In this document: positions 29,316-50,769 of the stretch, piece by piece
Numbering within the stretch: the first letter of the stretch is position 1
Layout of the letters: every line of letters begins with the position of its first letter
Origin: Tellurirhabdus bombi
GTDB lineage: Bacteria; Bacteroidota; Bacteroidia; Cytophagales; Spirosomataceae
DNA length: 64,000 nucleotides
Assembly: GCF_021484805.1 (NCBI RefSeq)
Contig: NZ_CP090557.1
Span: forward strand, 3,484,001 to 3,548,000
Direction: 5' to 3'
Translations under genes and position numbers: made by a program
The notes under the pieces: generated by a model
Databases searched by the model: none
What the model was told of the DNA's origin: nothing
What the model saw: the letters and a program-made list of their open reading frames with translations, nothing else

Positions 29316-31982
29316 TTACTTTTTCTGCTGCGAGAGGAACGTGATCAATGAAGCAAACTCTTCGTAGGACAAAGCGTTGGCCAGTCCGTCGGGCATCATG
29401 GATGTTTCCATTTCCTTCCGGCTGACAATATCGCTGGTTTTAATGGTCGATACTTCGCCCGCGATGTTCCGCATCACCAACTTATCGGCAGACTCCTGCG
29501 TAATGAAGCCCATGTAACTTTTGTTGCCTTTAGCGGTAACGAGCACCGTCGCAAAGCCCTGCGAGATGGAGGCATTGGGTTTAAGAATAGATTCCGCAAT
29601 CTGTTCCCGCGTCATGATAGATCCAATCTGTCCCATAAAAGGTCCTTTCATGGTCTCTCCTTTTGCCAGGCTATGGCAGGCAATGCAACCCTGCTGAACA
29701 AAAAGAGCTTTTCCTTTCACCGGATCGCCTTGAATCTTCGCCATCGCCAGCATTACATCTTCGATGGACGCTTTACCAATCTGGCCCTTCTGGTTCCGAA
29801 TTTTCTCCAGATCGACCTTGATTTCCTCTTTGGCTGCTACGACCTCTTCGCCGCCGAATTCGGTGATGTCCAGCCGAAGGCGATTGTTGAGATCAGCATA
29901 AAAGGTCTTTCCGGCCTCGTTGGTTTTGTTCCACTCCTGCATCAAGACCTCTTTGATCGCGGGAGACGATTCCCAAACCACTGCTTTGTAGTACGGACCG
30001 TGCGTATCAGGACGCGTGCTCCACCACCACGAACCATCGTAAACGGCTTCTTTTTTGTACAACCGGGCCAGCGTGTTTACAATGTCTTTCTTGAGCTTCT
30101 CGTCGCTCGACTTTGTATAGGCCGCAATCAAGCCATTTACCGCCTTGGAATCGTGCATGTACCGCAAGGCCCAAAGTGCCAGTGCTGAATTTTCGCTACC
30201 GATGGCGTTCACACAGGCGTCTACCGCATTCATGCTGACCAGCGCCCGAACCGCCAGGTGCGGCGGGATAATCGCCGAGTTAGGCGTAGCGTGTGGGCCT
30301 TCAGTTCCTTTTGCCGGTTCAACGAACGACGCAGGTACTTTTACCTCTAGCAGGGCCGGAGCCGCTTCAGCCCGACCCAAACGGCCCAGACCAATGGTTG
30401 CCGCAACCCGTACGCGTTCAGAAGGATCTTTCAAGCCCTGGATAAACGGCTCAAGGGGCACATTCTGAAGGTTATTTTTCCGATCTGCCAGCGCCTTTAA
30501 GGCAAATTCCCGCATGTCGCTTTCCGCAGTCAGTTTGACTAGATTGTCAATTCCGTTGGTTCCTGCTGCCTGCGCGTAGGTAAATAGTCCCGCCACGCGA
30601 ATGTGCAGGGGCAGGCTTTTGTCTTCGGCAATTTTCCAGGATGCTTTCGCGGCATCTTTCGGACGAGTCAGCAATTCCTGCTGGGCGGCCAGCCGGGCTA
30701 CCCCGCTCTCCGACTTAAGAATAGCAACCAGTTGTTTAACCGAGGCTTTTTTCACGTCTGGAAACGCTTTGTACTGCCAGTTTTTGGGAACTGCCCGCAC
30801 CACATATCCTTTGCTAGGGTTCCCCGAATAACCCGCTCCGTCCCAAGCGGCCATATAAACCCGACCAGAGGCGTCTACATCAACGTCCGTGATTTGGGGG
30901 AGCTTGATGAACTCTTCTTCTTTTTGGGTAAAGCTGGCTCCGTCCGGTGTGACGCGGTGAATATAAAGCTGGTTTCTTCCCCAGTCGGCCATCATCGGCA
31001 CGCGGTTGTATTTTTCCGGCCAGGTTGAATCATCCATGAACAGCGAACCGGTTCCAGAACCACCTCCTACGTCAACCAGGGCAGGAATGATTTCATTGGT
31101 AAAATGCTTGAACAACACCGGATAGCCGTATTCCCCCGACTGAATCTGGTGGCTAAACCGGATGTTCCAGCCGCCCCCGTCGTTGGTGTTATCCCGCGTA
31201 AAAACATTCATGTAGGGATCAATGGCTACGTCGTAGATGTTCCGCATACCGTGGGTGAAAACCTCCATTTCGGTTCCGTCCGGACGCACACGTACAATTC
31301 CACCGCCCAGTTGGGTCAATTTCTTACCAGTCCGATCGACGGCGTCGTGGAAACCAAAGTCACCGACGGCAATGTAAATCCAGCCATCAATACCCATGCG
31401 GATTCCGTTGGTGGCGTGGTCAGTCCCCCGGTTTTGCAGAAACTTAGGCGAGCTTATATTCTGGATCAGTGGTTTGGAGGGGCCATCGGCCACACCATCC
31501 CGGTTCTGATCCTCAAAAACAACCAGATCCATGCCGCTGGCTTTACCGGTTTCTTTCGAGAACGTGGTGTGCAGCACAAAAACCTGATCGCCGTTGGCAA
31601 TAATTCCGCGTGGGTTATCCACCATCGCAAATTTGGTGTGCTGGTCTACTTTACCATCATTATTGCTATCTACCAATTTGATGATGTGTCCTTTTCCCGG
31701 CTCTTTTCCGAGGGAACCCATCATGTCTACGCCCACAAAAACGGCACCGGTTGGTGCCACAGCCAGACAGGATGGACTAGGCGTTAAATCAGGACCGGCA
31801 AAATTGGAAACCACGATTTCCTCCGGCGCGACCGCTTTAAACTGGGGTTTATTGAGAGAAGTATTTACTGGAGTACGCTTCCCAACGGGCGCGCTCTTCT
31901 CTTTTTCAGAGACGCCCAGTTTTTCTAAAATCCCAATTAGAAATAGGAAAACGTAAACCAGACTCAAGAAAACTTTTACCAT
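29316..31982 (-). CDS. PVC-type heme-binding protein: sugar-dehydrogenase-like propeller, HEAT repeats and cytochrome c
   Basis: 888 residues with an N-terminal hydrophobic anchor (VFLSLVYVFLFLIGILEKLG). Residues ~50-395 form a glucose/sorbosone dehydrogenase-like beta-propeller (GIRMGIDGWIYIAVGDFG, GGGIVRVRPDGTEMEVFTHG). HEAT-like helices cover ~400-640 (PSERVRVAATIGLGRLGRAEAAPALLE). The C-terminal region holds a single c-type heme site CIACH around residue 765 and then the conserved KPNASISQGFATVLV and DIVSRKEMETSMMPDGL typical of 'PVC-type' heme-binding proteins. It likely feeds electrons from a periplasmic substrate, probably a sugar, to the respiratory chain. The substrate is unknown. 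Confidence 0.9.
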   Translation of the reverse strand: MVKVFLSLVYVFLFLIGILEKLGVSEKEKSAPVGKRTPVNTSLNKPQFKAVAPEEIVVSNFAGPDLTPSPSCLAVAPTGAVFVGVDMMGSLGKEPGKGHIIKLVDSNNDGKVDQHTKFAMVDNPRGIIANGDQVFVLHTTFSKETGKASGMDLVVFEDQNRDGVADGPSKPLIQNISSPKFLQNRGTDHATNGIRMGIDGWIYIAVGDFGFHDAVDRTGKKLTQLGGGIVRVRPDGTEMEVFTHGMRNIYDVAIDPYMNVFTRDNTNDGGGWNIRFSHQIQSGEYGYPVLFKHFTNEIIPALVDVGGGSGTGSLFMDDSTWPEKYNRVPMMADWGRNQLYIHRVTPDGASFTQKEEEFIKLPQITDVDVDASGRVYMAAWDGAGYSGNPSKGYVVRAVPKNWQYKAFPDVKKASVKQLVAILKSESGVARLAAQQELLTRPKDAAKASWKIAEDKSLPLHIRVAGLFTYAQAAGTNGIDNLVKLTAESDMREFALKALADRKNNLQNVPLEPFIQGLKDPSERVRVAATIGLGRLGRAEAAPALLEVKVPASFVEPAKGTEGPHATPNSAIIPPHLAVRALVSMNAVDACVNAIGSENSALALWALRYMHDSKAVNGLIAAYTKSSDEKLKKDIVNTLARLYKKEAVYDGSWWWSTRPDTHGPYYKAVVWESSPAIKEVLMQEWNKTNEAGKTFYADLNNRLRLDITEFGGEEVVAAKEEIKVDLEKIRNQKGQIGKASIEDVMLAMAKIQGDPVKGKALFVQQGCIACHSLAKGETMKGPFMGQIGSIMTREQIAESILKPNASISQGFATVLVTAKGNKSYMGFITQESADKLVMRNIAGEVSTIKTSDIVSRKEMETSMMPDGLANALSYEEFASLITFLSQQKK

Positions 31983-32358
31983 ACTAACAAATTTAAAGGT
32001 TACTGTTTCAAAAAATCCGGTACGAATTACGTTTACTTTGTCGATAAATTATAACAAAAACGATAGTTTAGTATTAATTTCTTTAGACGCTTTTGCGCTG
32101 TACATCCATGTCGCTGGAAACCTACTCCAAAACTCTTGCCGCATCCATTCCCACTTACCGGACGCCTTATTCTGCCCTTTCCGAAAACAGTGTGATTGCC
32201 ACTCAGATGTTACCTGCGATGTAACGTTAAAGATATAGGGCATATTTGATTCTTGGAAGCACCAGAAACTTGTAGACTTTTCTACCCCCCTTTTTTGCTT
32301 AGAATACCCCCTCTCCGCCCTCGAGTCAACTATTAATATTGTAATAAATTTTTGACTA
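31983..32358. other. 376-base gap between the PVC-type gene and the small membrane peptide
   Basis: Holds the divergent upstream regions of the minus-strand PVC gene and the plus-strand peptide at 32359. The left half is AT-rich without a recognisable gene; open frames at 32038 (+) and 32049 (-) have unnatural composition (Cys, His and Trp scattered). The right half contains the shared ACCCCCC promoter box at 32284. Confidence 0.6.
32284..32341 (+). promoter_or_regulatory. PUL-type promoter box C, in front of the 41-aa membrane peptide
   Basis: ACCCCCC at 32284-32290, TTTTTTG, then GAATA and a second CCCCC at 32307-32311 form the same box as in front of susC. TAATATTG at 32334-32341 matches the -7 consensus with one mismatch and starts 50 bases after the box, the spacing seen in the two PUL promoters (49 and 51). 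Confidence 0.6.
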
Positions 32359-32484
32359 ATGAACAAAGACCTTAAAAAGGTTCCTAAACCAGAAGCGAAA
32401 CGATTTAAATTTCACCGGTTCGTTATTATCGGCATCGAACTTCTAATTGCCGGACTCATCATCTTTTTTATTCACTCGTACTGA
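32359..32484 (+). CDS. Small single-helix membrane peptide (41 aa)
   Basis: ATG at 32359 opens 41 codons to TGA at 32482-32484. A basic cytosolic N-terminus (NKDLKKVPKPEAKRFKFHR) is followed by one strong transmembrane helix (FVIIGIELLIAGLIIFFIHS) and a tyrosine end. The positive-inside orientation is clear. It lies about 10 bases after the predicted transcription start of the box C promoter, convergent with the regulator gene. I know no family for it. It resembles the small membrane peptides that modulate larger membrane proteins, so a link with SusC/SusD or the sensor kinase is possible but unproven. Confidence 0.6.
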   Translation: MNKDLKKVPKPEAKRFKFHRFVIIGIELLIAGLIIFFIHSY

Positions 32485-32521
32485 TCAAATCTACCTTTAC
32501 CCTTACCCGGCCAATAGCGGC

Positions 32522-35500
32522 TTAGCTCTCGTATTCCAGCGGGCTTTCTTTCTCGGTTTTCCGGTGTTGCCGGGCGTATTCCGACGGCGATTGATTAAAG
32601 GTCTTCTGAAAGGACTGGCGGAAATGCTTAATGTCTTCAACGCCTACCTGCAAGGCAATTTCAGACACGCGCTGCGTGGTACTGGAAAGCAGTTGGGCAG
32701 CTCGCTTCATTCGAACATCCCGAATGAATTCGACGACTGTTTGTCCGGTAATGCTCTTGATTCGGCGGTAGAAGGCTGACTGGCTCATGCCCATCTCCTG
32801 CACTAGCGACTGAACACTAAACGCGGGCTCATGCAATCGGTTCTCGACTACTTTCATGGCCTTTTCCAGAATCTGCTTATCCTCGTCCGGAATGACAATT
32901 TCCGTCGGTTTCAGCAAAATCTGACGCTGGTAATACGTTCGGAGCTTAAACCGATTCTGGAGCATTGCCATGGTTTTGGCATGCAGAATCTTGGGATTAA
33001 AGGGTTTAGTGATGTAATCGTCGGCCCCAGTCTCCAAGCCTTCCAATTCGTGAATGGCCGACGCCCGCGCCGTCAGCAGTATGACCGGAATGTGCAGCGT
33101 TTTAGGGTGTAATTTCAACCGTTTGCACAGCTCCAGTCCATCGCTCCGGGGCATCATAATGTCGCTAATGACCAGATCCGGGCACAGTTCCAGGGCCTTT
33201 TCCCAGCCTTCCTGCCCATCTACGGCCAGATGCACCTCAAATTCCGCCTCAAACTGGTGCAGCAGGTATTGCCGAACCTCGTCATTGTCCTCCACAACCA
33301 AAATGCGCGTTGAACCGGGCAACGACACGGGTAGCTCTTCTTCCGGTACGGGCTCTAAAAAGTTATCCGTTTCCGGCACTTTATACTCTTTTTCTCCCGG
33401 CGATGAATCTTCGTAAAGATCCATGGGCGAAATGTGTTCCCGGCCAAATGGCAGACGAATGGTAAAAGTCGTCCCAAAACCAACTTCGCTCTGAACCAGA
33501 ATCTCGCCCGCGTGGCGCTCCACAAGCTGTTTTACCAGCGATAAGCCAATCCCCGTCCCCATCATCCGCAGGGTTTCGGTATGCGATGCCTGGTAATAGG
33601 GATCAAAAATATTCGCCAAATCCTCGGCTTTCATGCCCATCCCCCAATCCCGCACCCGAACTTCCAGGTAGTTGTCCTGAAGCTTTCCGTTCGTTAGGGT
33701 TGCGGGCTGGTCCGGACGGCCTACCGCCTCCGCCGAAATGCGAATTTTACCGCCCGGCGGCGTATATTTAAAGGCGTTAGACAGCAGATTGGTCAGAATC
33801 ACCTCTAGTTTGCTGCGGTCAAAGTAAAGGGGAACCGCTTCGGATGGCACCTCCACGGCGTAGTCCAACTGAAGCTCCTCGGCTTTTAATTTAAAAATTA
33901 AAAAGATTTCGGTTAGGAACAGATTGATATCCTGCTGGCTAACCCGCAACGCAACGTGCCCCGTTTCTACCTTCCGAAAATCCAGCAACTGATTCACCAG
34001 ATCCAGGAGCTTACGCGTCTGGGTGTGCATCAGCAATACTTTGTTTTTCAGGCTACCCAACTGCCCCGCCGAGGCAACGAGTTCTTCCATCGGCCCTAAA
34101 ATCAAGGTCAGAGGCGTCCGAAGCTCGTGGGAGACATTCGTAAAGAAGCGCAGTTTTAGATCGGTAACCTCTTTTTCTTTTTCGTTCTGGAATTTTTCAA
34201 AAGCCAGATTATTCTTCAATTCCTGCTGCTTGAGCGCCGTTCGTCGGTAGAGCACCATCGCGCTAATAATGCCTAGTGCGTAGAGCAGGTAAGCCCACCA
34301 GGTTTTCCACCAGGGCGGTAAAATCGTAAAGTCAACCGAAGCCGGTTTGCTGGACCACAACCCATCGCCATTGCTTCCCTTCACCAAAAAAGTGTAGTTC
34401 CCGGCGGGCAGGTTGGTAAAGCTGGCCGTGCGCTGGCCGGGATTCGGGTAAACCCACTCATCGTTAAACCCAACCAACTGGTAGGCGTATTGGTGTTTTT
34501 GGGGATTGTTGTAATTGATACCGACAAACTCAATCAAGATATCATTTTCCGACGCCTTGATGCGTATGTCCTGCGGGGTAGCAAACGGTTTGGTCAGCAT
34601 AACCCGCCCGTTGATGGTATCACCGACGCCAACGGGCTGGTTCATGATGCGCAGCCCCGTAATCTGCATCAGCGGTGGGAATGGATTGGATCGGATGGCC
34701 TTCGGGTGAAAATAGGTGATCCCGTTTGTTCCGCCAAAGAACAGGGTTCCGTCGGCACTCTGAAAGGCAGATCCAATCTTAAAGGAATTGCTTTGCAAGC
34801 CATCGGTTACATCGTAATGCAACAATCGTTTGGTATCCGGATTGAACTGGTATAGCCCCGCCCCTCCGATCCAGATATTTCCCGCCTCATCCGATAACAA
34901 GCTTTCGATATCCGTTTCAGGCACCCACTGGCTGTACCGTTCAATCACTTCTTTTCCCTCTTTGTTCTTCACCAGGCGATGCAAACCACCGCCGATGGTG
35001 CCAATCCACAGCGTACCCCGGCGGTCTTTCAACAGCGGCCAGGCGTAATTGACGCGCAGGCTGTTCGGGTTGTTGGGTTCGTGCCGGAACTGGTTTAATA
35101 GCGACAGCTTATTCGCCTCAAGACGCAGCTTGATTACCCCTTCGCCCCGGGTACTTACCCAAAGGACATTCTCATCCCCCGCATACAACAGGGTTGTCGC
35201 TTCGTCAATGGGCAATCCACTGTTTGCCCGGTTGTGGGTTTTCAGGAATTTGCCCTGGCGATCAAACTGAAGCAGTCCGGCGTTAAAGGTAGCCACCCAG
35301 ATATTGCCGAATCGGTCTTCCACAATATCTTCAATACTGGCCTGCTGCCAACTGTCAATGGTCGGCAACGGGGGCAAAGGTGTCAAGGTGTTCTGGCCCG
35401 TCAGCAGGTAAATTCCGTTGTGGCGGGTACCCACCCAAAGCGTTCCATTGCTGGCCTGAAAGAAGGTCGATACATCCACCCCATTCACATTTCCCGACAA

Positions 35501-36802
35501 GGCGCGATTGAGGTAGTTTTGGTATTTTCCCTGCGTAAAATCGTAGCTGGCAAATCCGTTCCGGCTTCCAATCCACAAGCGGTTGCTGTTGCGGTCTTTA
35601 TACATCGCGTTGATGTAATTGTTGGCGGGCGTAGCCTGGCCGAAAAGCTGACGCCGCAACTGTTGGAACGGTTTGGTATTTAGCTTTACCTGATTCAACC
35701 CTCCCGCCGAGGTCGCAAACCACAGGTTGTGAAAGCGGTCTTCCAGGATCTGGTGCACCCGCACGGAATTGATGCTGTACGGATCGGTATCCAGCGGCAA
35801 AAAAGTATGCGTTTGCGCCTCGTCTACCGGCGGTGCCAGGGCCGTCACCGGGCCAGGCTTCATCAACAACAGCCCAAAACTGGTACCAATCCACAACCGA
35901 TGGAAGGAATCCAGGTAGAGGCTTTCAATATCTCCGAAGGTTCGGCGCAGCGGTTGGGGCCGAAAATCCTGGCTCCGGGTGAGGGCCTGGCTGCCCACCC
36001 AAAAGACCTGGCTATTGGTTCCGATCCACAAATCGCCCCGGCGGTCAAGCAGCAGCGCCCGAACGCTTGATACCGAATACGAGGCAACCCGGGATGCGTG
36101 CAGCGAGGCGTTTTTTTGCTGAAGATTATTTCCCTGAAAAAGCCAAAGCCCCTTCTCGTAGGTTCCAATCCAAAGATTATTCTGTTTATCGAGGACAATG
36201 CGACTTATGGCATGATCGTGGTTCGAAGGCGTTTTTTCCCCCGGCTCTTTTACATGAATCTGACGCATGGCAGACAGGTTTCCCTGCTCGTCCATACGGA
36301 ACACAAAGATACCGTACCACTGCGTACCTACCCAGACCTGCCCCTGGTTGTCGGAAGTAATGGCCGAAATGGTGGATTCGGTGAGGAGTTGAACCAGTTT
36401 CTGGTAGTTTGAAGGCACCCGGCAATCCCGCATGCTGACGAAGCGATCTTTCGTGACATCGTACCAGAAAAGACCTGCCCGCTCGGCACCCGCCCACAAG
36501 CTTCCGGCTGGCGTGACATGCAAAGCCCGAATCCGGTTGCTGGTAGCCCCTTTCTGGTCGTTGATGGGGAGGTCGTATTTTTTTAATTCAAAGCCGTCGT
36601 AGCGATTGATCCCTTTGTTAGTGCCCACCCAGATAAAACCCTGTTTATCCTGATCCACAACCATGGCATCGCTGTGGGCAAGACCCTCATTGACGGTAAT
36701 GTGCTCAAACCTAAATCGATCCGATTCAGACTGTGATAACCCGGGAGTAAATAAGCAGCAGGCTATCCATAAACTCAAACAACAGTTAATTAACCACTTC
36801 AT
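32522..36802 (-). CDS. Hybrid two-component system regulator (HTCS) of the polysaccharide locus
   Basis: One-protein sensor and activator, 1426 residues. A signal peptide precedes a sensor of two seven-bladed two-component-regulator propellers (repeats such as QGFIWVGTNKGINRYDG; about 30-740) and a Y_Y_Y domain (about 750-830). A transmembrane helix (WWAYLLYALGIISAMVLYR) leads to a histidine kinase with NVSHELRTPLTLILGP (His near residue 890) and ATPase lobe, a receiver (VVEDNDEVRQYLL; DIMMP near 1216) and a C-terminal AraC helix-turn-helix (~1340-1415). Such proteins bind periplasmic oligosaccharides and switch on the neighbouring PUL. It is divergent from the GH43-GH105 gene with the shared promoter box between them. 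Confidence 0.96.
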   Translation of the reverse strand: MKWLINCCLSLWIACCLFTPGLSQSESDRFRFEHITVNEGLAHSDAMVVDQDKQGFIWVGTNKGINRYDGFELKKYDLPINDQKGATSNRIRALHVTPAGSLWAGAERAGLFWYDVTKDRFVSMRDCRVPSNYQKLVQLLTESTISAITSDNQGQVWVGTQWYGIFVFRMDEQGNLSAMRQIHVKEPGEKTPSNHDHAISRIVLDKQNNLWIGTYEKGLWLFQGNNLQQKNASLHASRVASYSVSSVRALLLDRRGDLWIGTNSQVFWVGSQALTRSQDFRPQPLRRTFGDIESLYLDSFHRLWIGTSFGLLLMKPGPVTALAPPVDEAQTHTFLPLDTDPYSINSVRVHQILEDRFHNLWFATSAGGLNQVKLNTKPFQQLRRQLFGQATPANNYINAMYKDRNSNRLWIGSRNGFASYDFTQGKYQNYLNRALSGNVNGVDVSTFFQASNGTLWVGTRHNGIYLLTGQNTLTPLPPLPTIDSWQQASIEDIVEDRFGNIWVATFNAGLLQFDRQGKFLKTHNRANSGLPIDEATTLLYAGDENVLWVSTRGEGVIKLRLEANKLSLLNQFRHEPNNPNSLRVNYAWPLLKDRRGTLWIGTIGGGLHRLVKNKEGKEVIERYSQWVPETDIESLLSDEAGNIWIGGAGLYQFNPDTKRLLHYDVTDGLQSNSFKIGSAFQSADGTLFFGGTNGITYFHPKAIRSNPFPPLMQITGLRIMNQPVGVGDTINGRVMLTKPFATPQDIRIKASENDILIEFVGINYNNPQKHQYAYQLVGFNDEWVYPNPGQRTASFTNLPAGNYTFLVKGSNGDGLWSSKPASVDFTILPPWWKTWWAYLLYALGIISAMVLYRRTALKQQELKNNLAFEKFQNEKEKEVTDLKLRFFTNVSHELRTPLTLILGPMEELVASAGQLGSLKNKVLLMHTQTRKLLDLVNQLLDFRKVETGHVALRVSQQDINLFLTEIFLIFKLKAEELQLDYAVEVPSEAVPLYFDRSKLEVILTNLLSNAFKYTPPGGKIRISAEAVGRPDQPATLTNGKLQDNYLEVRVRDWGMGMKAEDLANIFDPYYQASHTETLRMMGTGIGLSLVKQLVERHAGEILVQSEVGFGTTFTIRLPFGREHISPMDLYEDSSPGEKEYKVPETDNFLEPVPEEELPVSLPGSTRILVVEDNDEVRQYLLHQFEAEFEVHLAVDGQEGWEKALELCPDLVISDIMMPRSDGLELCKRLKLHPKTLHIPVILLTARASAIHELEGLETGADDYITKPFNPKILHAKTMAMLQNRFKLRTYYQRQILLKPTEIVIPDEDKQILEKAMKVVENRLHEPAFSVQSLVQEMGMSQSAFYRRIKSITGQTVVEFIRDVRMKRAAQLLSSTTQRVSEIALQVGVEDIKHFRQSFQKTFNQSPSEYARQHRKTEKESPLEYES

Positions 36803-36818
36803 ATGCTATGACTAATTT

Positions 36819-36890
36819 ACCCCCTTTTTTTGACGAAAACTAACCTTTATCATCGGACAGGTAACATTATTTTTGCATTATTCAAATGAT
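36819..36890 (+). promoter_or_regulatory. PUL-type promoter box A, in front of the GH43-GH105 gene
   Basis: ACCCCC at 36819-36824 and TTTTTTTGACGA directly after it, then TATTTTTG (-7) at 36868-36875, 49 bases from the box start, and ATTCAAATGAT at 36880-36890 near the likely start of transcription. The layout and two of the words are the same as at box B before susC. Confidence 0.65.
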
Positions 36891-36982
36891 AGATTGAAGG
36901 CTTCTGAACGCCTGTAACCTTTCATGATACCGATGGGCTTTAGATTTGGCCGCTGTATCCACTGCTTAACTCTTCAACTTCC

Positions 36983-39112
36983 ATGTTCATTTCGTTTGTA
37001 AAAAAGGCCACGGCTAGCCTCTTGCTGACGGGCCTGCTTGCCGCTCTAGTAGCCGCCAAATCCGTTGACCCACCCCGGCGAAAAACAGTCGCCCCGCCAG
37101 GTGATACGCCATCCAAACAGACAGTTTTCAAGCCCGGCCAACGCTGGTACGACACCAAAGGCGAACTCATCAACGCTCACGGCGGCGGGTTGCTCTACAT
37201 CAATAAGACCTATTACTGGTTTGGTGAAAAACGCGGAAAACAGGCGTCTGAAGGCGTCAATGTCTATTCCTCGAAAGATTTATACAACTGGAAATTTGAA
37301 GGACTGGCTCTGGCTAAATCAAGCGATCCCAAAAGTGAGATTGCCCACGGTGGCCTGATGGAACGTCCGAAAGTCATTTATAACCCGAAAACGAAAAAAT
37401 TTGTCATGTGGTTTCACCTGGAACTGCCGGGCCAGGGTTATAATGCCGCCCGCGCCGGGGTAGCCATCAGTGATAAAGTAACCGGTCCGTATCAGTACGT
37501 CAGCAGCTTTCGACCTAACGGCCACATGTCCAGGGACATGACCCTTTTCGTGGATGACGATGGCTCCGCGTATCACATCTACTCGGCCCGCGATAATTAC
37601 GACCTTCGCATAACGAAACTAGCCGACGATTATTTGACCGCTACCAAACAGGACACGCTGTTGCTCAGCAAACACCGCGAAGCACCCGCCGTATTTAAAC
37701 ACCAAGGCATGTACTACATGATCACCAGCGGCTGCACCGGCTGGGACCCCAACCAGGCTACGCTACACGCCGCCAAGTCGCTGTTTGGCCCCTGGGAGTT
37801 TCTCGGCGACCCCATGAGAGGCAAGCTGGCGGCGAAGACGTTTGGTGGACAGTCTACGTATATCCTCCCGGTTCAGGGCAAAAAAGATGCTTTCATTTTT
37901 GTGGCCGATCAGTGGAAGCCCCGCGATCTGATCGACAGCCGCTATCTGTGGCTTCCGATTACGTTTGAGAACAACAAGCCGGTAATCGAGTGGAAAGACG
38001 AATGGAGCCTTAAGACGGGCTGGACGGAGCAACCCGCGCAGAAAGAAGTAAAAGCAACGATTCAGAAAGTAAATGACTACTGGCAATCGGCCAATCTGAC
38101 CCACGGCAGGGCATTCTGGGACAATGCCGCCTACCATACCGGCAACATGGAAGCGTACTTTCTGACGGGAAACGAAGCCTACCGGCGCTATTCGGAGGCC
38201 TGGGCCGAACAAAACCAGTGGAAAGGAGCCAAATCGGACGACAAACAAGCCTGGAAATACAGCTACGGCGAAACCGACGACTATGTGCTCTTTGGCGACT
38301 GGCAGATCTGTTTCCAGACGTACATTGATCTGTATAACATCCAGCCGGGCCGAAGCGAAGCCGCGACCCGGAAAATTGCCCGCGCGCGGGAAGTCATGGA
38401 ATACCAGATGAGTACGCCTAAATCCGACTACTGGTGGTGGGCCGATGGCTTATACATGGTGATGCCGGTGATGACGAAACTGTATAACGTAACGGGCAAT
38501 AAGCAATACCTGGAAAAGCTGCACGAATACTTTACGTACGCCAACAGCATCATGTACGACGAGTCGGAAAAACTCTACTACCGCGATGCCAAGTACGTAT
38601 ACCCCAAACACAAGAGCGTCAATGGCAAAAAAGACTTCTGGGCGCGGGGCGATGGCTGGGTTTTTGCCGCCCTGGCGAAAGTACTGAAAGACCTCCCCGC
38701 CGATGCTCCCCACCGGGACGAATACCTCACTAAATATAAAAACATGGCAGAAGCGATTCTAAAATCCCAGCAGGCAGAAGGGTACTGGACGCGCAGCATG
38801 CTCGACGCCGAACACGCTCCCGGCCCCGAAACCAGCGGAACCGCCTTTTTCACGTATGGGTTGCTTTGGGGCATTAACAACGGGCATCTGGCCGAGAAAA
38901 CCTACCTACCTGCCGCTCAAAAAGGCTGGAAATACCTCACAACGGTTGCCCTGCAACCAACGGGTAAAATCGGTTACGTCCAGCCCATCGGCGAAAAAGC
39001 CATTCCCGGTCAGGTCGTTAATGCCAATTCGACGTCCAATTTCGGGGTGGGTGCTTTTCTGCTGGCTGGTTGTGAAATGTACCGACACTTGGAGAAAAAA
39101 GCCGCCAATTAA
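36983..39112 (+). CDS. GH43 (subfamily 24-like)-GH105 fusion glycosidase
   Basis: Exported 709-residue enzyme with signal peptide (LLLTGLLAALVAAKS). Residues ~48-345 are a five-bladed GH43 domain of the exo-beta-1,3-galactanase type: INAHGGGLLY replaces the usual catalytic-base Asp motif, MERPK (Glu127), RDMTLFVDDDG (Asp185), REAPAVF (Glu233, likely acid) and FGGQST (Gln290), as in subfamily 24. Residues ~360-709 are a GH105 (alpha/alpha) barrel with GDWQICFQTYIDLY and WARGDGWVFAAL (Asp557), expected to cleave unsaturated glucuronyl or galacturonyl residues. Joining the two is unusual. Both activities fit arabinogalactan-protein side chains and backbone. DUF2264 and susCD follow downstream. 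Confidence 0.87.
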   Translation: MFISFVKKATASLLLTGLLAALVAAKSVDPPRRKTVAPPGDTPSKQTVFKPGQRWYDTKGELINAHGGGLLYINKTYYWFGEKRGKQASEGVNVYSSKDLYNWKFEGLALAKSSDPKSEIAHGGLMERPKVIYNPKTKKFVMWFHLELPGQGYNAARAGVAISDKVTGPYQYVSSFRPNGHMSRDMTLFVDDDGSAYHIYSARDNYDLRITKLADDYLTATKQDTLLLSKHREAPAVFKHQGMYYMITSGCTGWDPNQATLHAAKSLFGPWEFLGDPMRGKLAAKTFGGQSTYILPVQGKKDAFIFVADQWKPRDLIDSRYLWLPITFENNKPVIEWKDEWSLKTGWTEQPAQKEVKATIQKVNDYWQSANLTHGRAFWDNAAYHTGNMEAYFLTGNEAYRRYSEAWAEQNQWKGAKSDDKQAWKYSYGETDDYVLFGDWQICFQTYIDLYNIQPGRSEAATRKIARAREVMEYQMSTPKSDYWWWADGLYMVMPVMTKLYNVTGNKQYLEKLHEYFTYANSIMYDESEKLYYRDAKYVYPKHKSVNGKKDFWARGDGWVFAALAKVLKDLPADAPHRDEYLTKYKNMAEAILKSQQAEGYWTRSMLDAEHAPGPETSGTAFFTYGLLWGINNGHLAEKTYLPAAQKGWKYLTTVALQPTGKIGYVQPIGEKAIPGQVVNANSTSNFGVGAFLLAGCEMYRHLEKKAAN

Positions 39113-39247
39113 CCCGCGTCACCCAAGTACCCCTAGTCCCTTAAAGAAGTACTTACGCAAAACTAATCTAGGCTATTCAAAGGGTCAATGTGCTGAAAAT
39201 CGGCTAGTTATTTACTCATTCGCTCATTGCTTTACTAGTACGCATTC

Positions 39248-40498
39248 ATGAAAAAAATCGGTCAACTTTTATTGGCATTTGCCGTGGTCGTGCTGACGCT
39301 CAGTTCAAGTTATGCACAAAAAAAACGGGCGGCTAAACCAGCCCCCGTACCCAGTGACCGTAGCGTTTGGCTGCGGGAAATGGACAAAATGGTCAAGCCC
39401 GTACTTTACAATCTGGCTCAGGATAGTCTGCGCATTGCCATGCCTAAAATCACGTCCAATCGCGTAGACAACAAAGCCCACCGCATCGAAGTCCAGTACG
39501 TTGAAGTGCTGGGGCGGGTGCTCAGTGGCGTGGCCCCCTGGTTGCAGCTCGAAGGCGGTAGCGCCGAAGAAGTCGCGCTGCGGAACCAGTACCGGCAATG
39601 GGCGCTCCAGGGCATTTCCAACGCGTTAGACTCCTCAGCGAAGGACTTTATGCGTTTCGACCTTGGCGGGCAGCAGTTGGTGGATGCGTCCTTCATTGCT
39701 TATGCCTTCGTGCGGGCGCCCTGGCTGTGGGAGCATTTGAGTGCGACGGACAAAAACCGCATGATTACCGCCCTGAAATCGACACGTCGGTTCAAGCCGG
39801 TATTCTCTAACTGGCTGCTTTTTTCGGCCATGACGGAAGCCTTTTTCTGCAAGTATGGTTACGAGTGGGATCCCATGCGGGTCGATTACGCCCTGATGCA
39901 AATGGAGCAGTGGTACGTTGGCGATGGGATGTATTCCGATGGGGTTAGCTATGCTTTTGATTACTATAACAGCTACGTGATTCATCCCTTTCTGGCAACC
40001 ATCACGGAGGTGATCGGTCAGAAAACCAACGGCTATAAGGACATGATCGCGAAAATTAAAAAGCGGAATGAGCGTTACGCCGTTATCCAGGAGCGCCTGA
40101 TCAACACGGACGGAACCTACCCCGCTACGGGTCGCTCGCTGGTTTACCGGGGGGCCGCCTTTCAGCACCTGGCCGACATGGCCTGGCGGAAAGCCTTACC
40201 CAAAGAGCTAAGCCCTGCCCAGGTACGCTGCGCCCTGACCGCCGTGATCAAGAAAACACTGGAAAGCCCTACAACCTACGACAAAGGCTGGCTGACCCTT
40301 GGTTTGTACGGCTCGCAACCCGACATGGCCGACTTTTACAACAACCAGGGAAGCCTCTATATCTGTACCAACATCTTCCTGCCGCTTGGCCTGCCTGAAA
40401 CCGATCCCTTCTGGGCCGATGCCCCAGCGAAATGGAGTGCCCAACGAATCTGGAGCGGTGAAGATTTTCCGCATGATCACAGTGTTAATTTAAAGTAA
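39248..40498 (+). CDS. DUF2264 (probable GH154 beta-glucuronidase-type) protein
   Basis: Signal peptide (LLLAFAVVVLTLSSSYAQ) and 395-residue mature part with the DUF2264 pattern: EVLGRVLSGVAPWLQLEGG, FVRAPWLWEHL, GDGMYSDGVSYAFDYYNSYVIHPF, INTDGTYPATGRSLVYRGAAFQHL and KGWLTLGLYGSQPDMADFYNNQGSLYICT. The (alpha/alpha) barrel fold is inferred. I recall that DUF2264 includes the beta-glucuronidases now called GH154, one of them from an arabinogalactan locus of Bacteroides thetaiotaomicron; this placement is from memory. The gene lies 135 bases after the fusion enzyme without a terminator between, so both may be on one transcript. Confidence 0.85.
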   Translation: MKKIGQLLLAFAVVVLTLSSSYAQKKRAAKPAPVPSDRSVWLREMDKMVKPVLYNLAQDSLRIAMPKITSNRVDNKAHRIEVQYVEVLGRVLSGVAPWLQLEGGSAEEVALRNQYRQWALQGISNALDSSAKDFMRFDLGGQQLVDASFIAYAFVRAPWLWEHLSATDKNRMITALKSTRRFKPVFSNWLLFSAMTEAFFCKYGYEWDPMRVDYALMQMEQWYVGDGMYSDGVSYAFDYYNSYVIHPFLATITEVIGQKTNGYKDMIAKIKKRNERYAVIQERLINTDGTYPATGRSLVYRGAAFQHLADMAWRKALPKELSPAQVRCALTAVIKKTLESPTTYDKGWLTLGLYGSQPDMADFYNNQGSLYICTNIFLPLGLPETDPFWADAPAKWSAQRIWSGEDFPHDHSVNLK

Positions 40499-40625
40499 AA
40501 TTTTTCTGCCGGAGTCTTCCCGAATAATTACTATTTATCCTTCAATGCGTTCATAAACTGGTTTTTACCGGGAAGGTTCCTGCTTTTTGGCAGGAGTCTT
40601 CCCAAATGCCCTTCTAAGCTTAATT

Positions 40626-40699
40626 ACCCCCCTCTTTTTGACGAGAATCCCCCTTTTGTATCGAGGACGCCCTCGTTAGCTTTGTACTATTCAAATGAT
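40626..40699 (+). promoter_or_regulatory. PUL-type promoter box B, in front of susC
   Basis: ACCCCCC (40626-40632), TCTTTTTGACGAGAAT, CCCCC (40649-40653), TTTG -33 element at 40655-40658, TAGCTTTG -7 element at 40677-40684, and ATTCAAATGAT at 40689-40699. The doubled C-box ends right against the -33 element, the usual place for an activator. The likely activator is the HTCS. Confidence 0.75.
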
Positions 40700-40764: not shown

Positions 40765-43700
40765 ATGAAAATTAAATGGTTATTTGTTCTCGGTGCACTG
40801 GTTACCTACAAGGGAGCTTTTGCCCAATTACCCACCTCTAAAAAAGGCGGCTTGATTGCATCCATCAACCGGCCTGTATCCCGCGATAAAGCGTTTGCTG
40901 ACGTGACGGTTACAGGGACTATCACGGATGAGAAAGGCGAAGGCCTGCCGGGTGCTACGGTTACCATCAAGGGAACCACACTAGGCACCAACACCGATGC
41001 CGACGGTAAATTCACCCTCCGCATTCCGGATGGCACCAGCACGCCGACACTCGTTGTTTCTTACATCGGTTACCTTCCTCAGGAAGTAGCCATCGGAAAC
41101 CAGACCGTTCTCAATATTCAGCTTAAGGGCGATGCCAAATCGCTGAACGAAGTGGTCGTTGTGGGTTACGGTACGCAGAAACGGTCGGACATCACGGGGT
41201 CGGTTGCTTCGGTTCCGAAAGAGCGCTTATCACAACTACCGGTTACGAACGTGCTTCAGGCGGTACAAGGATCGGTGGCCGGGGTGAACATCACCCAGTC
41301 GTCGTCCGTTCCGGGGGCGGAACCGTCAACCATTATTCGGGGTCAGAACTCGATCAACGCTAACTCAGGTCCGTTTGTGGTCGTCGATGGTATTCCGCTG
41401 AGCAAAACCGGCGGGTCGCTCAACGACATCAACCCGAACGATATTGAGTCTATGGAAATCCTGAAAGATGCCTCGGCGGTGGCCATTTACGGGACCAACG
41501 GCGCGAACGGGGTTATCCTGATCACGACGAAACGCGGAACAACGGGCAAGCCGGTTATTCGGTACAACGCCTACGCCGGGGTTGAAAATTTTTCGCATAT
41601 CCTGAAGCCCCGAAACGGGGCAGAATACGTGCAGAAATACAAGGACTGGTTGTCACAAACGGGCCAGACCATGGTCAACCCAGTGCCTAACTTCGATGAG
41701 TTGGCTAACTACAACGCAGGTATCACCACCGACTGGATCAAGGAAGCCACCCAAACGGGTATCTTACAGGATCATAACCTGAGCATTTCCGGCGGAACTC
41801 AAAACGTGAAATACTTCGTTTCAGGAGAAATTCTGGATCAGAAAGGACTTGTAAGAGGGTTCAATTACAAACGTGCCAGCTTCCGGTCGAACCTGGACGT
41901 TGATGTGACCAACTTCCTGAAAGTGGGAACGTCTTTGTTCATGGCCAATAACAACCGGGATGGTGGTCGTACAAACCTGCTGAATGCTTCGGCCATGAGT
42001 CCGTACGGGCAAATGTACAATCCCAATGGAACGTACAAAATTTTCCCGATGTTTCCCGAGCAGCTGTACACCAACCCAATGCTTGGTCTGACGACACAAC
42101 GCGAAGACAGAAGCACTAACCTGAACGGAAATGCGTACGCTGAAGTCAATTTTGACGGTCTGGTTAAAGGACTAAAATACCGTCTGAACGTGGGTTACTC
42201 CTACCTGCCCGCCCGCCGGGGATCGTACGTGGGACGTAGTGCCAATGACCTGAACGGAACGGCAACTACCTTCGCTTCGGAAACCAACAGCTACACCATC
42301 GAAAACATTCTGACCTATGGTCGGGATTGGGGAAAACACCACTTCGATTTTACGGGTCTTTACAGCGCCCAGCAACGGAAATACGTTCAGTCGGAAGGTC
42401 GGGCCGTTGGTTTTGTCAACGATGAGCTAGGCTTCTTCAACCTGGGTGCCGGGGCAACGCAGTCGAGCTTCTCATATGCGGATCGGTACGCGCTGAATTC
42501 GCAGATGGGACGGGTTAACTATTCGTACGATAGCCGCTACCTGTTTACGGTAACAGCCCGCCGCGATGGGTCGTCGGTATTCGGGGCCAACACCAGCAAA
42601 TACGGTTTGTTCCCTTCGGTAGCCCTGGGCTGGAACATCACCAACGAAGACTTCATGAAAAACCTGAATGCGATCAATAACCTGAAGCTTCGGTTATCGT
42701 ATGGTAAGTCAGGAAACGAAGCCATCAGTGTTTACCGCACCATTACAACCAGCAACACGGGACGTTCGCCGTTCAACGGGGTGAGCACCATCGGCGCGTG
42801 GCCCAGCAATCTAGGAAATGGCGACCTGCTTTGGGAAAATACACTTAGCCGCAACCTGGGGATAGACTTTGGTTTCCTGGCCAACCGGATTTCGGGTAGC
42901 CTTGAATTGTACCAGAACAACACAACGGGTCTGCTCCTGCAACGAAGCCTGCCGATTATTACGGGTTACGGCAACGTGTTTGACAACATGGGCGAGACCC
43001 GGAACCGGGGTATCGAGCTAACCGTTAATAGCCGTAATGTGACCAAAGGTGATTTCAAATGGGAATCGACGGTCGTTTTTGCCGCCAACAAAAACCAGAT
43101 TCTGGATTTGTACGGGGATAAAAAAGATGACCTTGGAAACCGTTGGTTCATTGGTCAGCCAATCAGCGTCATTTATGACTACAAATTAGCGGGTGTATGG
43201 CAGCAAGGTGAAGATGCTTCTTCGCAGGATCCGGGTGCTGTGGCGGGTGATTTGAAATTTGCCGACTTAAATGGCGATGGAAAAATCACGCCGGATGGCG
43301 ACCGCATGATTCTGGGCCAAACAGCCCCGAAATGGACCGGTGGTCTGACCAACGCGTTCCACTATAAAAACTTCCACCTGAATGTGTTCATTCAGACCGT
43401 GCAAGGACTTACGCGCAATAATGCCGATTTGACGTATGCCGATGAGACCGGCAAGCGGAACACGCCGGTTGACGTAGGTTATTGGACGCCCGAAAACCGG
43501 AGCAATGACCGTCCGTCCCTGGCTTACAAAAACCCACGCGGCTACGGTTACGCATCAGATGCTAGCTTTACCCGGATTAAAGACGTAACGCTGAGCTATG
43601 TCTTTGGTGCGAAAACGCTGGAAAAAGTGAAACTGGGTAGCGCAACGGTGTATCTAAGCGGCCGGAACCTGTACACGTTCACGAATTGGATTGGCTGGGA

Positions 43701-43812
43701 TCCAGAAGCCGTACAATACGGACGTGGAATTAGCAATTCCGCTGGAAGCTGGGAGACTAACTATCCCGTAACTCGCTCGTTTGTATTGGGCCTGAACGTA
43801 TCGCTTCGCTAA
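40765..43812 (+). CDS. SusC/RagA family TonB-linked outer membrane transporter
   Basis: The 1015-residue transporter imports oligosaccharides across the outer membrane with its SusD partner. A signal peptide ends at GAFAQ. Residues ~45-120 are a carboxypeptidase-regulatory-like domain (TGTITDEKGEGLPGATVTIK), followed by the SusC signature LNEVVVVGYGTQKRSDITG, the plug (NVLQAVQGSVAGVNITQ, ILKDASAVAIYG) and a 22-strand barrel ending NYPVTRSFVLGLNVSLR with terminal aromatic/basic pattern. It follows the box B promoter with a leader of about 75 bases; susD starts 28 bases after its stop. The substrate is taken from the neighbouring enzymes: probably arabinogalactan oligosaccharides. Confidence 0.95.
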   Translation: MKIKWLFVLGALVTYKGAFAQLPTSKKGGLIASINRPVSRDKAFADVTVTGTITDEKGEGLPGATVTIKGTTLGTNTDADGKFTLRIPDGTSTPTLVVSYIGYLPQEVAIGNQTVLNIQLKGDAKSLNEVVVVGYGTQKRSDITGSVASVPKERLSQLPVTNVLQAVQGSVAGVNITQSSSVPGAEPSTIIRGQNSINANSGPFVVVDGIPLSKTGGSLNDINPNDIESMEILKDASAVAIYGTNGANGVILITTKRGTTGKPVIRYNAYAGVENFSHILKPRNGAEYVQKYKDWLSQTGQTMVNPVPNFDELANYNAGITTDWIKEATQTGILQDHNLSISGGTQNVKYFVSGEILDQKGLVRGFNYKRASFRSNLDVDVTNFLKVGTSLFMANNNRDGGRTNLLNASAMSPYGQMYNPNGTYKIFPMFPEQLYTNPMLGLTTQREDRSTNLNGNAYAEVNFDGLVKGLKYRLNVGYSYLPARRGSYVGRSANDLNGTATTFASETNSYTIENILTYGRDWGKHHFDFTGLYSAQQRKYVQSEGRAVGFVNDELGFFNLGAGATQSSFSYADRYALNSQMGRVNYSYDSRYLFTVTARRDGSSVFGANTSKYGLFPSVALGWNITNEDFMKNLNAINNLKLRLSYGKSGNEAISVYRTITTSNTGRSPFNGVSTIGAWPSNLGNGDLLWENTLSRNLGIDFGFLANRISGSLELYQNNTTGLLLQRSLPIITGYGNVFDNMGETRNRGIELTVNSRNVTKGDFKWESTVVFAANKNQILDLYGDKKDDLGNRWFIGQPISVIYDYKLAGVWQQGEDASSQDPGAVAGDLKFADLNGDGKITPDGDRMILGQTAPKWTGGLTNAFHYKNFHLNVFIQTVQGLTRNNADLTYADETGKRNTPVDVGYWTPENRSNDRPSLAYKNPRGYGYASDASFTRIKDVTLSYVFGAKTLEKVKLGSATVYLSGRNLYTFTNWIGWDPEAVQYGRGISNSAGSWETNYPVTRSFVLGLNVSLR

Positions 43813-43839: not shown

Positions 43840-45468
43840 ATGAAAAAATACATAACCATACTGGCTTTGTCGGCCACCGTGCTGGCAACCTCCTGCAAGG
43901 AGGACTTCCTGGATGAAAAGCCTTATTCCGCTTACACGCCGATTACTTTAACGGATTCACTGGGTTTTCAAGCCTCGCTGATCGGCTTATACAACCATAC
44001 CAGTACGTATTTCTCCTGGTCTGATCGGCAGGGATGGCCAAGCGTATGGCAGGTAGGTACGGATATCGCCAATGCCACCGCTAACCAGGAAGGTATCGAA
44101 ATACCTTATTACAACTATGCGTTGTTGACGCCAACCGACGCCGCCGCCAACCGTACCTGGAACCGCAATTACGTCATGATCAACATGACCAATACCATTA
44201 TCAGCAGCATTGAATCGCCGTCCCTGACGGTAATCAGCGCGGTTGGTAAGGCCCGGATCAGTGCGGAAGCGAAATTTTTCCGGGGGTATGCCTACAACAA
44301 CCTGGCAACCTTCTTTGGCGGTGTTCCCTTGTTGACGCAACCGCTGACCGCCCCGAAAACGGATTTCGTGCGGGCTCCGCTGGAAGAAATCAACAACCAG
44401 GTTATTAGTGATCTTACTTTCGCGGCGCAGAACCTACCCGATATCGAAAGCGTCCCGTCGAACACCAAAGGCCGGTTATATGGCCGCGCGAACAAGTTTA
44501 TGGCCATGCAATTGCTAGCCGAAGCATATTTGCGCATTGGTAAGCCCGAACTGGCTGAAGAACAACTGAAAGCCATCATCAGCAGCAACCGGTTCAAACT
44601 GATCAAAGCGCGGTACGGCACCAAAGCGAGCCTTCCCGGTGATTATTACTCGGATATGTTCGCCTACGGAAACCAACGCCGCGTTCAGGGAAATACGGAA
44701 GCCATCTGGGTACTGGAGCAGGAAAACCCCGCAACAGTCGTTGGTGGAATTACCGACAACCCGCAACAGCGGCGGGTATGGGGAGCCGCTTACCACAACG
44801 TCAGTGGTATGGCTTTGTCTGATTCAACGGGAGGCCGGGCGCTGGGTCGTCTGCGGCTGAGCAACTGGGTTATCTATAGCCTGTACAAGCCGGGTGATAT
44901 TCGGAATTCGCATTATAATTTCCGGAGACGGTATACGTACAATGATCCGACTAAACCAGCTACGTATGGCAAACCCGTTCCCTACGCTGGGCCGGACACC
45001 TTATTCCACCTGGCTCCGCACACGACCAAGTGGTACCAGTTTGACCCGAACGATACATTTGGATACGCCATGGTTAAAGATTTTATCCTGATGCGTTTGG
45101 GCGAAACATACCTGTTGCTGGCCGAAGCGCAATTCAAACAGGGCAAACTCGAAGACGCGGCGGCAAGCATCAACGTCCTGCGCGAACGGGCTTTCCCGGG
45201 CTATCCAGCCGTTGGTAAGGTAGCTGCTTCGGACATCACGTTGGACTTTATTCTGGACGAGCGGGTTCGCGAGTTGCTGGGTGAAGAAAACCGCCGGATG
45301 ACCCTCATGCGGACTAAAACGCTGGTACAACGGGCCACTCGCCTGAACCGCAACAACGCCTTTAACCCCATCGTTGGCATCAACGAAAACAACCTCTTGC
45401 TGCCAATTCCGCTGAACGAAATTCAGTTGAACAAAGACGCGGTGCTGACTCAAAATCCGGGTTACTAA
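43840..45468 (+). CDS. SusD/RagB family surface glycan-binding lipoprotein
   Basis: Surface lipoprotein that forms the lid of the SusC transporter. A signal peptide with lipobox ends at Cys19 (LATSC) and is followed by KEDF, which fits the acidic surface-export signal of Bacteroidota lipoproteins. The protein is helical with the RagB/SusD layout: an N-terminal helical repeat region, SAEAKFFRGYAYNNLATFFGG, and the C-terminal DFILMRLGETYLLLAEAQFKQG, LDFILDERVRELLGEENRR. Length, 542 residues, is typical. It ends the operon, with a clear terminator 27 bases downstream. Confidence 0.95.
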   Translation: MKKYITILALSATVLATSCKEDFLDEKPYSAYTPITLTDSLGFQASLIGLYNHTSTYFSWSDRQGWPSVWQVGTDIANATANQEGIEIPYYNYALLTPTDAAANRTWNRNYVMINMTNTIISSIESPSLTVISAVGKARISAEAKFFRGYAYNNLATFFGGVPLLTQPLTAPKTDFVRAPLEEINNQVISDLTFAAQNLPDIESVPSNTKGRLYGRANKFMAMQLLAEAYLRIGKPELAEEQLKAIISSNRFKLIKARYGTKASLPGDYYSDMFAYGNQRRVQGNTEAIWVLEQENPATVVGGITDNPQQRRVWGAAYHNVSGMALSDSTGGRALGRLRLSNWVIYSLYKPGDIRNSHYNFRRRYTYNDPTKPATYGKPVPYAGPDTLFHLAPHTTKWYQFDPNDTFGYAMVKDFILMRLGETYLLLAEAQFKQGKLEDAAASINVLRERAFPGYPAVGKVAASDITLDFILDERVRELLGEENRRMTLMRTKTLVQRATRLNRNNAFNPIVGINENNLLLPIPLNEIQLNKDAVLTQNPGY

Positions 45469-45622: not shown

Positions 45623-46027
45623 ATGGACTTACTACTCACAACCGAATCAAACGATAGCAGCTTTGGCCTCGTGGAGCAAGCCCGGCAGGGCGTCAACCGC
45701 GCCAAGGTGGATGAGGTGGCCCAATCGATCAGCCTGACCGACAAGGACATGGCGCGCATCCTGAACCTCTCCGAACGAACGCTCCACCGACTGCGACCCG
45801 AGGCCCGACTGGACAGCAATGCTTCCGAGCGGCTGTTGCTCCTGGAAAACCTGCTGACCCACGGCCTAGGTGTTTTCGACGGGCGGGCGGCGGTGCTGGG
45901 GCGCTGGTTGCGCGTTCCATTGGCTGAGTTGCGTCGCCAGACTCCACTGGACCTGCTCGACACGGCCACCGGCTTTGCGCTGGTTCATACCGTACTGGGG
46001 CGGATTGAGCACGGTATTTACGCTTAA
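45623..46027 (+). CDS. Xre/ParS-type antitoxin of a RES toxin-antitoxin pair
   Basis: 134-residue DUF2384-type protein. An Xre-like helix-turn-helix lies at ~35-60 (SISLTDKDMARILNLSERTLHRLRP), and the C-terminal ParS/MbcA toxin-binding domain (ERLLLLENLLTHGLGVFDGR, VPLAELRRQTPLDLLDTATG) is plain. It would neutralise the RES toxin encoded 8 bases downstream and repress its own promoter. The pair lies after the PUL terminator. Confidence 0.88.
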   Translation: MDLLLTTESNDSSFGLVEQARQGVNRAKVDEVAQSISLTDKDMARILNLSERTLHRLRPEARLDSNASERLLLLENLLTHGLGVFDGRAAVLGRWLRVPLAELRRQTPLDLLDTATGFALVHTVLGRIEHGIYA

Positions 46028-46035
46028 GCTCCGCT

Positions 46036-50686: not shown

Positions 50687-50769
50687 TAAACTGTCGAGCA
50701 AATTGAGGGAATCTGGAACCGGAATTGTTTTGGAACGATTCCGGTTTCGCTATACAAAGCCCGATTCAG

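Follow-up and report, generated by a model that had tools for sequence, protein, structure and literature searches.

Two boxes on the + strand of a polysaccharide utilization locus (PUL) of Tellurirhabdus bombi, at positions 36819 and 40626, are very probably the operators of the hybrid two-component system (HTCS) regulator encoded at 32522-36802 of the same locus, as judged from sequence comparison. The locus lies in a stretch of 64,000 nucleotides (hereafter the window; positions 3,484,001 to 3,548,000 of contig NZ_CP090557.1) and comprises the HTCS, a GH43 and GH88 fusion protein, a DUF2264 protein, SusC and SusD. The regulator combines a sensor, HisKA, HATPase_c, Response_reg and a C-terminal AraC-type helix-turn-helix in a single protein, and it has a susC/susD pair nearby, the susC start lying 4 kb from its own. 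The case is built on computed properties of the boxes, namely the site itself and its spacing, how far it is conserved, how closely it is linked to the HTCS and how scarce it is elsewhere.

The two boxes have in common ACCCCC(C), the core TTTTTGACGA, another C tract 21 bp further along, the element TAnnTTTG, and ATTCAAATGAT four bases behind TAnnTTTG. An earlier note on this stretch had described three such boxes, at 36819, 40626 and 32284, with -7-like elements 49, 51 and 50 bases after the box starts and a common start sequence at two of them; the boxes, all on the + strand, the -7-like elements and the shared ATTCAAATGAT (36880-36890 and 40689-40699) are where it placed them (Table 1). It had also put a second CCCCC 17 bases after the end of the first; the actual gap is 16 bases at both sites concerned. 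In operator 1, ACCCCC (36819-36824) runs into TTTTTTTGACGAAAA (36825-36839); the box starts at a distance of 17 bases from the start codon of the HTCS gene, oriented toward the GH43/GH88 gene. Operator 2 has ACCCCCC at 40626-40632 and its second CCCCC at 40649-40653. Measured between the 3' edges of the paired C tracts, the spacing is 21 bp at 36819, 40626 and 32284 alike, which gives a direct repeat of similar half-sites in one orientation at ~21 bp, with a weak second half at 36819. TAnnTTTG, the -7 of housekeeping (sigma-ABfr type) promoters, is found at 36868 and 40677 and is absent at 32334. As to a -33 TTTG, inspection by eye found TTTTG 18 bases before TAGCTTTG at the 40626 promoter, and none in the susC promoters of two related loci discussed below (L003 and L012).

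Table 1. Coordinates of the predicted regulatory sites and of the genes around them, in window numbering unless a contig is named
Feature	Position	Strand	Remarks
Operator 1 (predicted), ACCCCC-TTTTTTTGACGAAAA	36819..36845	+	weak second half-site CC at 36844-36845
-7 element TATTTTTG, divergent promoter	36868..36875	+	49 from box start; 39 bases from box TTTG
ATTCAAATGAT, probable transcription start	36880..36890	+	
Operator 2 (predicted), ACCCCCC-TCTTTTTGACGAGAAT-CCCCC	40626..40653	+	upstream of susC
-7 element TAGCTTTG, susC promoter	40677..40684	+	51 from box start; 40 bases from box TTTG
ATTCAAATGAT, probable transcription start	40689..40699	+	
Weaker operator-like site, ACCCCCC-TTTTTTGCTTAGAATA-CCCCC	32284..32311	+	without the GACGA core
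-7-like TAATATTG, mismatching TAnnTTTG	32334..32341	+	50 from box start; commonest spacing, 40
41-codon frame, doubtful gene	32359..32484	+	one hydrophobic stretch; behind the third site
HTCS regulator, 1426 aa	32522..36802	-	Reg_prop propeller, Y_Y_Y, HisKA, HATPase_c, Response_reg, AraC-type HTH_18
GH43 + GH88 fusion protein	36983..39112	+	predicted target
DUF2264 protein	39248..40498	+	predicted target
SusC/RagA-family TonB-dependent transporter	40765..43812	+	predicted target
SusD-family lipoprotein	43840..45468	+	predicted target
AraC-family protein, second AraC-type gene	50725-51579		~14 kb from HTCS start
Strong distant site, own genome	G000:C1, box 1898661-1898675; TANNTTTGN4ATTCAAAT one-mismatch match 1898607-1898626	-	profile total 64.6

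The 4.94 Mb genome (G000, one contig) has two exact copies of CCCCCYYTTTTTGAC, both in this locus, with ~0.04 expected at equal base frequencies. With up to two mismatches allowed there are 53 matches, compared with 42 in the reversed control, and the loose box by itself is therefore largely background; one box with a single mismatch, at 513892, was rejected because it falls within an open reading frame. Joining the box to the -7 (CCCCN{2,5}TTTTGN{34,46}TANNTTTG) leaves three distinct places against one control match. Two of these are 36819 and 40626; the third, 780652, carries a box and TAnnTTTG but neither GAC nor a second C tract; it is near an aldo/keto reductase gene and was assigned to background. 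TANNTTTGN4ATTCAAAT matches exactly twice, both times in this locus, and six more times with one mismatch (control 3); places 27676 and 4929337 show part of the pattern without a C tract and were rejected. A pattern modelled on the sites themselves provides no independent test and was discounted. We also used a two-block profile, made from 32 sites of other genomes only, with a box-to--7 spacing of 39 or 40, and scanned with spacings of 38-41. The top three places in the window, each counted once, score 80.1, 67.4 and 19.2 (the third being 32284) and the next -3.0; the maximum in 10.2 Mb of random sequence, generated by a first-order Markov model of the window, is 13.8.

The same arrangement recurs in other genera. 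Among the best 80 loci with relatives of the GH43/GH88 protein, among the matches listed, L003 (Xanthocytophaga) has the gene order found here, and L004, L011 (both Siphonobacter) and L012 (Spirosoma) have most of the genes in another order. All four have a susC of the same family and TAnnTTTG at an unchanged distance from the box, which stands at both the HTCS-side and the susC promoters in L003, L004 and L012 and at susC in L011, where the HTCS side falls outside the locus. With two mismatches, boxes also turn up in L004 at 13737, L047 at 2317 and L064 at 10748. NCBI taxonomy places Xanthocytophaga in the Rhodocytophagaceae and Siphonobacter in the Cytophagaceae. Between HTCS and susC, L012 (Spirosoma arboris) has a gene at ~1780-2650 whose product, by eye, resembles a DUF1080 protein.

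Close HTCS relatives (E <= 1e-300, 45-63% identical, at most two candidates scored per genome) are present in 40 of the 200 family genomes, giving 52 matches with our own; the upstream regions of 50 of them were analysed, own included, and the two omitted are both from G072. A word pattern found a box on the divergent strand upstream of the HTCS in 24 of 30 loci and some match in nine of the next 20, with L202 and L205 among these lacking a -7 at the usual distance. The profile was then applied with training sites from, or near-identical to, the tested region excluded. On the divergent strand it exceeds 14 in 46, 20 in 44 and 0 in 49 of the 50 regions; on the HTCS strand none of the 50 scores above 0. 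In several genomes, as here, the box lies 15-22 bases from the HTCS start; the promoter of the HTCS gene itself must then overlap the box or be close to it, and autoregulation is possible.

A search of the 200 genomes that was blind to the HTCS (CCCCN{2,4}TTTTGRCGAAA) returned 59 distinct boxes in 49 genomes. For 23 of them the start of a close HTCS relative is no more than 10 kb away, where ~0.05 are expected with the mean genome size set at 6.2 Mb. All 23 are opposite in strand to the HTCS: 22 are upstream and point away from it, and one (G001:C7:212867) lies 3.9 kb past its 3' end and points back. TAnnTTTG stands at the right distance from 22 of the 23 (the exception, in G068:C2, reads TAATGTTG) versus two of the 36 others, namely L173 (G036), which precedes a relative of the distant target described below, and L219. 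The remaining 34 of these 36 have no correctly spaced TAnnTTTG, and 28 of the 36 are within frames of at least 200 codons. Counted by genome, the box is present in 19 of the 40 with the HTCS versus 30 of the 160 without (Fisher p 0.0004). In genomes with a related HTCS the box is conserved upstream of related targets, with the exceptions listed below.

One strong site lies far from the PUL in the T. bombi genome (Table 1). It was matched independently by the box search (as one of two places with one mismatch) and by the TANNTTTGN4ATTCAAAT search, with the same spacing. The gene behind it, at 1898675 (-), encodes a glucose/sorbosone dehydrogenase (GSDH) domain, and the best 30 loci include relatives of it, 70-79% identical, from 29 other genomes. 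Within these best 30 loci, the box is found at the GSDH gene in eight of the 17 genomes with the HTCS and in none of the 13 without it (one-sided hypergeometric p 0.004). In six genomes (G002, G029, G038, G040, G068 and G097) the GSDH gene adjoins the HTCS and is divergent from it, the position that the GH43/GH88 gene holds here. We therefore predict that this distant gene is a member of the regulon. The earlier note had counted a box in front of a gene outside any PUL as evidence against a shared regulator; this is the one such case, yet it supports the idea because GSDH relatives adjoin the HTCS in those six genomes.

Several observations weigh against assigning the boxes to this HTCS. The second half-site at 36819 is just CC, and the third site deviates from the motif. 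The word search fails in six of its first 30 loci (L148, L150, L151, L152, L155 and L156), and four of the 50 upstream regions score at or under the chance maximum (L202, L204, L215 and L216). The HTCS-blind pattern gives 70 matches before overlap merging versus 44 for its reversed control, which makes most boxes away from the HTCS chance occurrences. Nine of the 17 HTCS-bearing genomes have no box at the GSDH gene; since six of the eight boxes that do stand there are HTCS-adjacent, the independent distant cases are only G000 and G036. Relatives of the HTCS were assigned by similarity alone, without a tree and with two at most per genome. Finally, where neighbours are inherited together, an element can persist next to a gene even though that gene's product does not bind it.

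An alternative is that the boxes are bound by some other regulator, distant or, for example, the AraC-family protein at 50725-51579, and that the HTCS is a mere neighbour. The window does hold this second AraC-type gene, and its relatives (E <= 1e-40) occur in 96 of the 200 family genomes, including 31 of the 40 with the HTCS. However, such a relative is missing from nine HTCS genomes (G002, G010, G024, G036, G038, G077, G091, G151 and G199), and in all of these except G010 a box scoring above 20 stands upstream of the HTCS. Moreover, the box stays with the HTCS while the adjoining target varies (GH43/GH88, susC or GSDH), and a similar susC accompanied by a different HTCS goes with a different core. 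We consider control by another regulator very unlikely, and the gene at 50725 appears to be a poorer candidate than the HTCS.

The difference in core is seen in seven Pedobacter loci (L018, L019, L029, L034, L037, L038 and L042), in which SusC is 65-68% identical to that of T. bombi and the HTCS 28-30%. Their promoters of the same susC family follow the same operator plan, with (A)TTTAACCCC / ATTACCCC as a direct repeat ~21 bp apart and a -7 at a similar distance, but TTTTTGACGAAAA is absent and the core is another, for example ATTTAACCCC-TATTTATTACCGT-ATTACCCC. Operator specificity thus seems to go with the HTCS, the core changing where the HTCS differs though susC is similar. The sister operator ATTTAACCCC..TTATTACCGTATTACCCC stands before the susC family at 11465 in L018, 13562 in L019, 13538 in L029, 13536 in L034, 13544 in L037, 13528 in L038 and 13532 in L042, and was also seen in L024, L028, L035 and L057 (Pedobacter and related loci).

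A fixed -7 element at a fixed spacing is also what one would expect if the shared sequence were a sigma-factor promoter, extracytoplasmic function (ECF) type or other, with no activator operator at all. We regard this as extremely unlikely. In the available text of PMC7366714, the housekeeping promoter of Bacteroidota consists of a -7 TAnnTTTG and a -33 TTTG, so that the -7 here (36868 and 40677) is the housekeeping one; no conserved -33 was seen, and the operator appears to stand in its place. The box ends 22-23 bases upstream of the -7 and is a direct repeat spanning two helical turns, in keeping with the HTCS motif as described in the published text available.

Returning to the HTCS as the regulator of 36819 and 40626, we infer binding, activation, phosphorylation, ligand, operon limits and transcription starts as follows. 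Its C-terminal AraC-type domain would bind as a dimer to a pair of half-sites lying on the same side of the helix at a spacing of 21 bp (two helical turns): AATTTACCCCC then TTTTTGACGAAAA forms the first, and a weaker C tract the second. The half-site nearer the promoter ends 22-23 bases upstream of TAnnTTTG, so the operator seems to occupy the place of a -33; the bound HTCS would most likely recruit the housekeeping-sigma polymerase to a promoter that lacks a good -33 (activation from a class II-like position). An oligosaccharide at the periplasmic sensor would set off phosphotransfer to the receiver, which would release the DNA-binding domain and switch on the GH43/GH88-DUF2264 and susCD operons together with the GSDH-domain gene at G000:C1:1898675 (-). 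An AraC-type dimer on same-face half-sites is proposed for Bacteroides HTCSs in the accessible part of PMC3878776, and that of PMC11253607 gives a model in which phosphorylation releases the DNA-binding domain. The latter has to be applied with care, because the S/CHIP motif at the interface of receiver and DNA-binding domain reads LHIP in the HTCS at 32522-36802 and its first residue is variable. Among the HTCS relatives this residue is L, M, A, G, N, T or S, with S in five (23 of 30 loci script-readable, own included); in Bacteroides it is S or C in 84%, again according to the accessible part of PMC11253607. Inhibition of the DNA-binding domain may work differently in this HTCS.

Behind the -7, ATTC(A/G)AAT follows TAnnTTTG by four bases at all three strong sites of the genome (36880-36890, 40689-40699 and G000:C1:1898607-1898614 (-)), and ATTC(A/G)A is found in 20 of the 32 profile sites of other genomes. 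It is not a general promoter feature of this genome, with eight matches at up to one mismatch versus three for the control. One could suppose that ATTCAAAT is a second regulon-specific element at the 5' end of the PUL and GSDH messages, so that these promoters would carry a two-part signature of operator plus start-site element; it might act, for example, as a site for an RNA-binding protein or a small RNA, or as an initially transcribed sequence required by the HTCS-activated promoter. We find this idea improbable.

The earlier note had attributed all three boxes to one regulator, most simply the HTCS. The attribution is strongly supported for 36819 and 40626, where the box tracks HTCS relatives and the same spacing recurs in Xanthocytophaga, Spirosoma and Siphonobacter; for 32284 it is not established, as the GACGA core is absent, the -7 is poorer and no conserved gene lies behind it. 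The third site has ACCCCCC at 32284-32290 and CCCCC at 32307-32311, lacks TTTTTGACGA, a true TAnnTTTG and ATTCAAAT, and scores 0.3 in the B block of the profile. Its total, third-ranked in the window, exceeds the random maximum and so is above chance, though by far less than at 36819 and 40626. Since the same profile gives 19.3 for a Hymenobacter site without explanation and 8-13.5 for operators in Pedobacter and related loci, a generic HTCS-type architecture could explain the score. We conclude that 32284 is probably an HTCS-type operator, either degenerate or foreign (another regulator's).

Could 32284 nevertheless be a full member of the regulon, driving either a small membrane protein or an antisense RNA opposite the 3' end of the HTCS message? 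Its score above anything in 10.2 Mb of random sequence, the commonest spacing of its -7-like element, the 21 bp between the 3' edges of its C tracts and the 41-codon frame with its hydrophobic stretch all speak for this, as does a good box in G001 that likewise lies past the HTCS 3' end (3.9 kb) and faces the HTCS. They are countered by the missing GACGA, by TAATATTG in place of TAnnTTTG, by the absence of ATTCAAAT, and by the scores that the same profile gives elsewhere, 8-13.2 for operators in Pedobacter loci with another HTCS and 19.3 for the Hymenobacter site. The small frame has no relatives (E <= 0.01) in the other 199 of the 200 family genomes, and a comparison with Pfam gave no convincing family, the lone match (E 0.054) falling below the cut-off. 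On balance we think full membership unlikely, while giving it some weight. Good boxes with TAnnTTTG past the HTCS 3' end are thus seen in two loci: in L153 (G036) the box lies 223 bases past that end on the HTCS strand, and in L235 it is the G001:C7:212867 box just mentioned, 3.9 kb past and facing the HTCS as 32284 does.

On its other side, the third box is adjoined by a DUF7133/PVC-type heme-binding protein (29316-31982) with HEAT and cytochrome c domains. It has no relatives (E <= 1e-10) in the searched loci around HTCS relatives, nearly all of which span at least 900 bases past the HTCS. The distant GSDH target gives a weak match to the PVC-type model that also matches this protein. Immediately 3' of susD, at 45623-46524, are an Xre/MbcA/ParS-type antitoxin gene and a RES-domain gene, probably a toxin-antitoxin pair. 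Identical stretches occur on the same strand near both ends of the contig (G000:C1:27676-27725 and 4929337-4929386), with downstream frames identical as far as they were read; perhaps ~40 kb of circular overlap was left untrimmed, or the stretch is duplicated.

Operators of this kind have been known since 2013, when, according to the available part of PMC3878776, those of 16 HTCS regulons of Bacteroides thetaiotaomicron were predicted as direct repeats with centres ~21 bp apart on average. As in that system, an AraC-type hybrid regulator lies beside susC/susD, a direct repeat lies upstream of susCD-type operons, and the regulon is predicted to take in a distant gene, as some do there (BT4675 and BT2680). 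The present case differs in its lineage, Cytophagales, in the core ACCCCC-TTTTTGACGAAAA and in ATTCAAAT behind the -7, the Bacteroides motifs being compared by their description. The earlier note was aware of no such operator for Cytophagales HTCS proteins; we too found none for that order, although the published Bacteroides repeats mean that the type itself is not new. No HTCS operator outside Bacteroides was recognised in titles and abstract beginnings of the open-access literature, nor in the available parts of PMC12125979 and PMC10766802. To judge by that literature and its accessible parts, the novelty lies in the core, in the Cytophagales lineage and in the distant GSDH target.

Bacteroidota use HTCS proteins as major switches for carbohydrates, and the sole motif study that we found covers Bacteroides. 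The boxes described here provide a specific candidate operator for a Cytophagales HTCS lineage and place the 21 bp direct-repeat plan outside Bacteroides. The core between the repeats appears to change with the regulator, and a distant GSDH-domain gene is predicted to respond together with the PUL.

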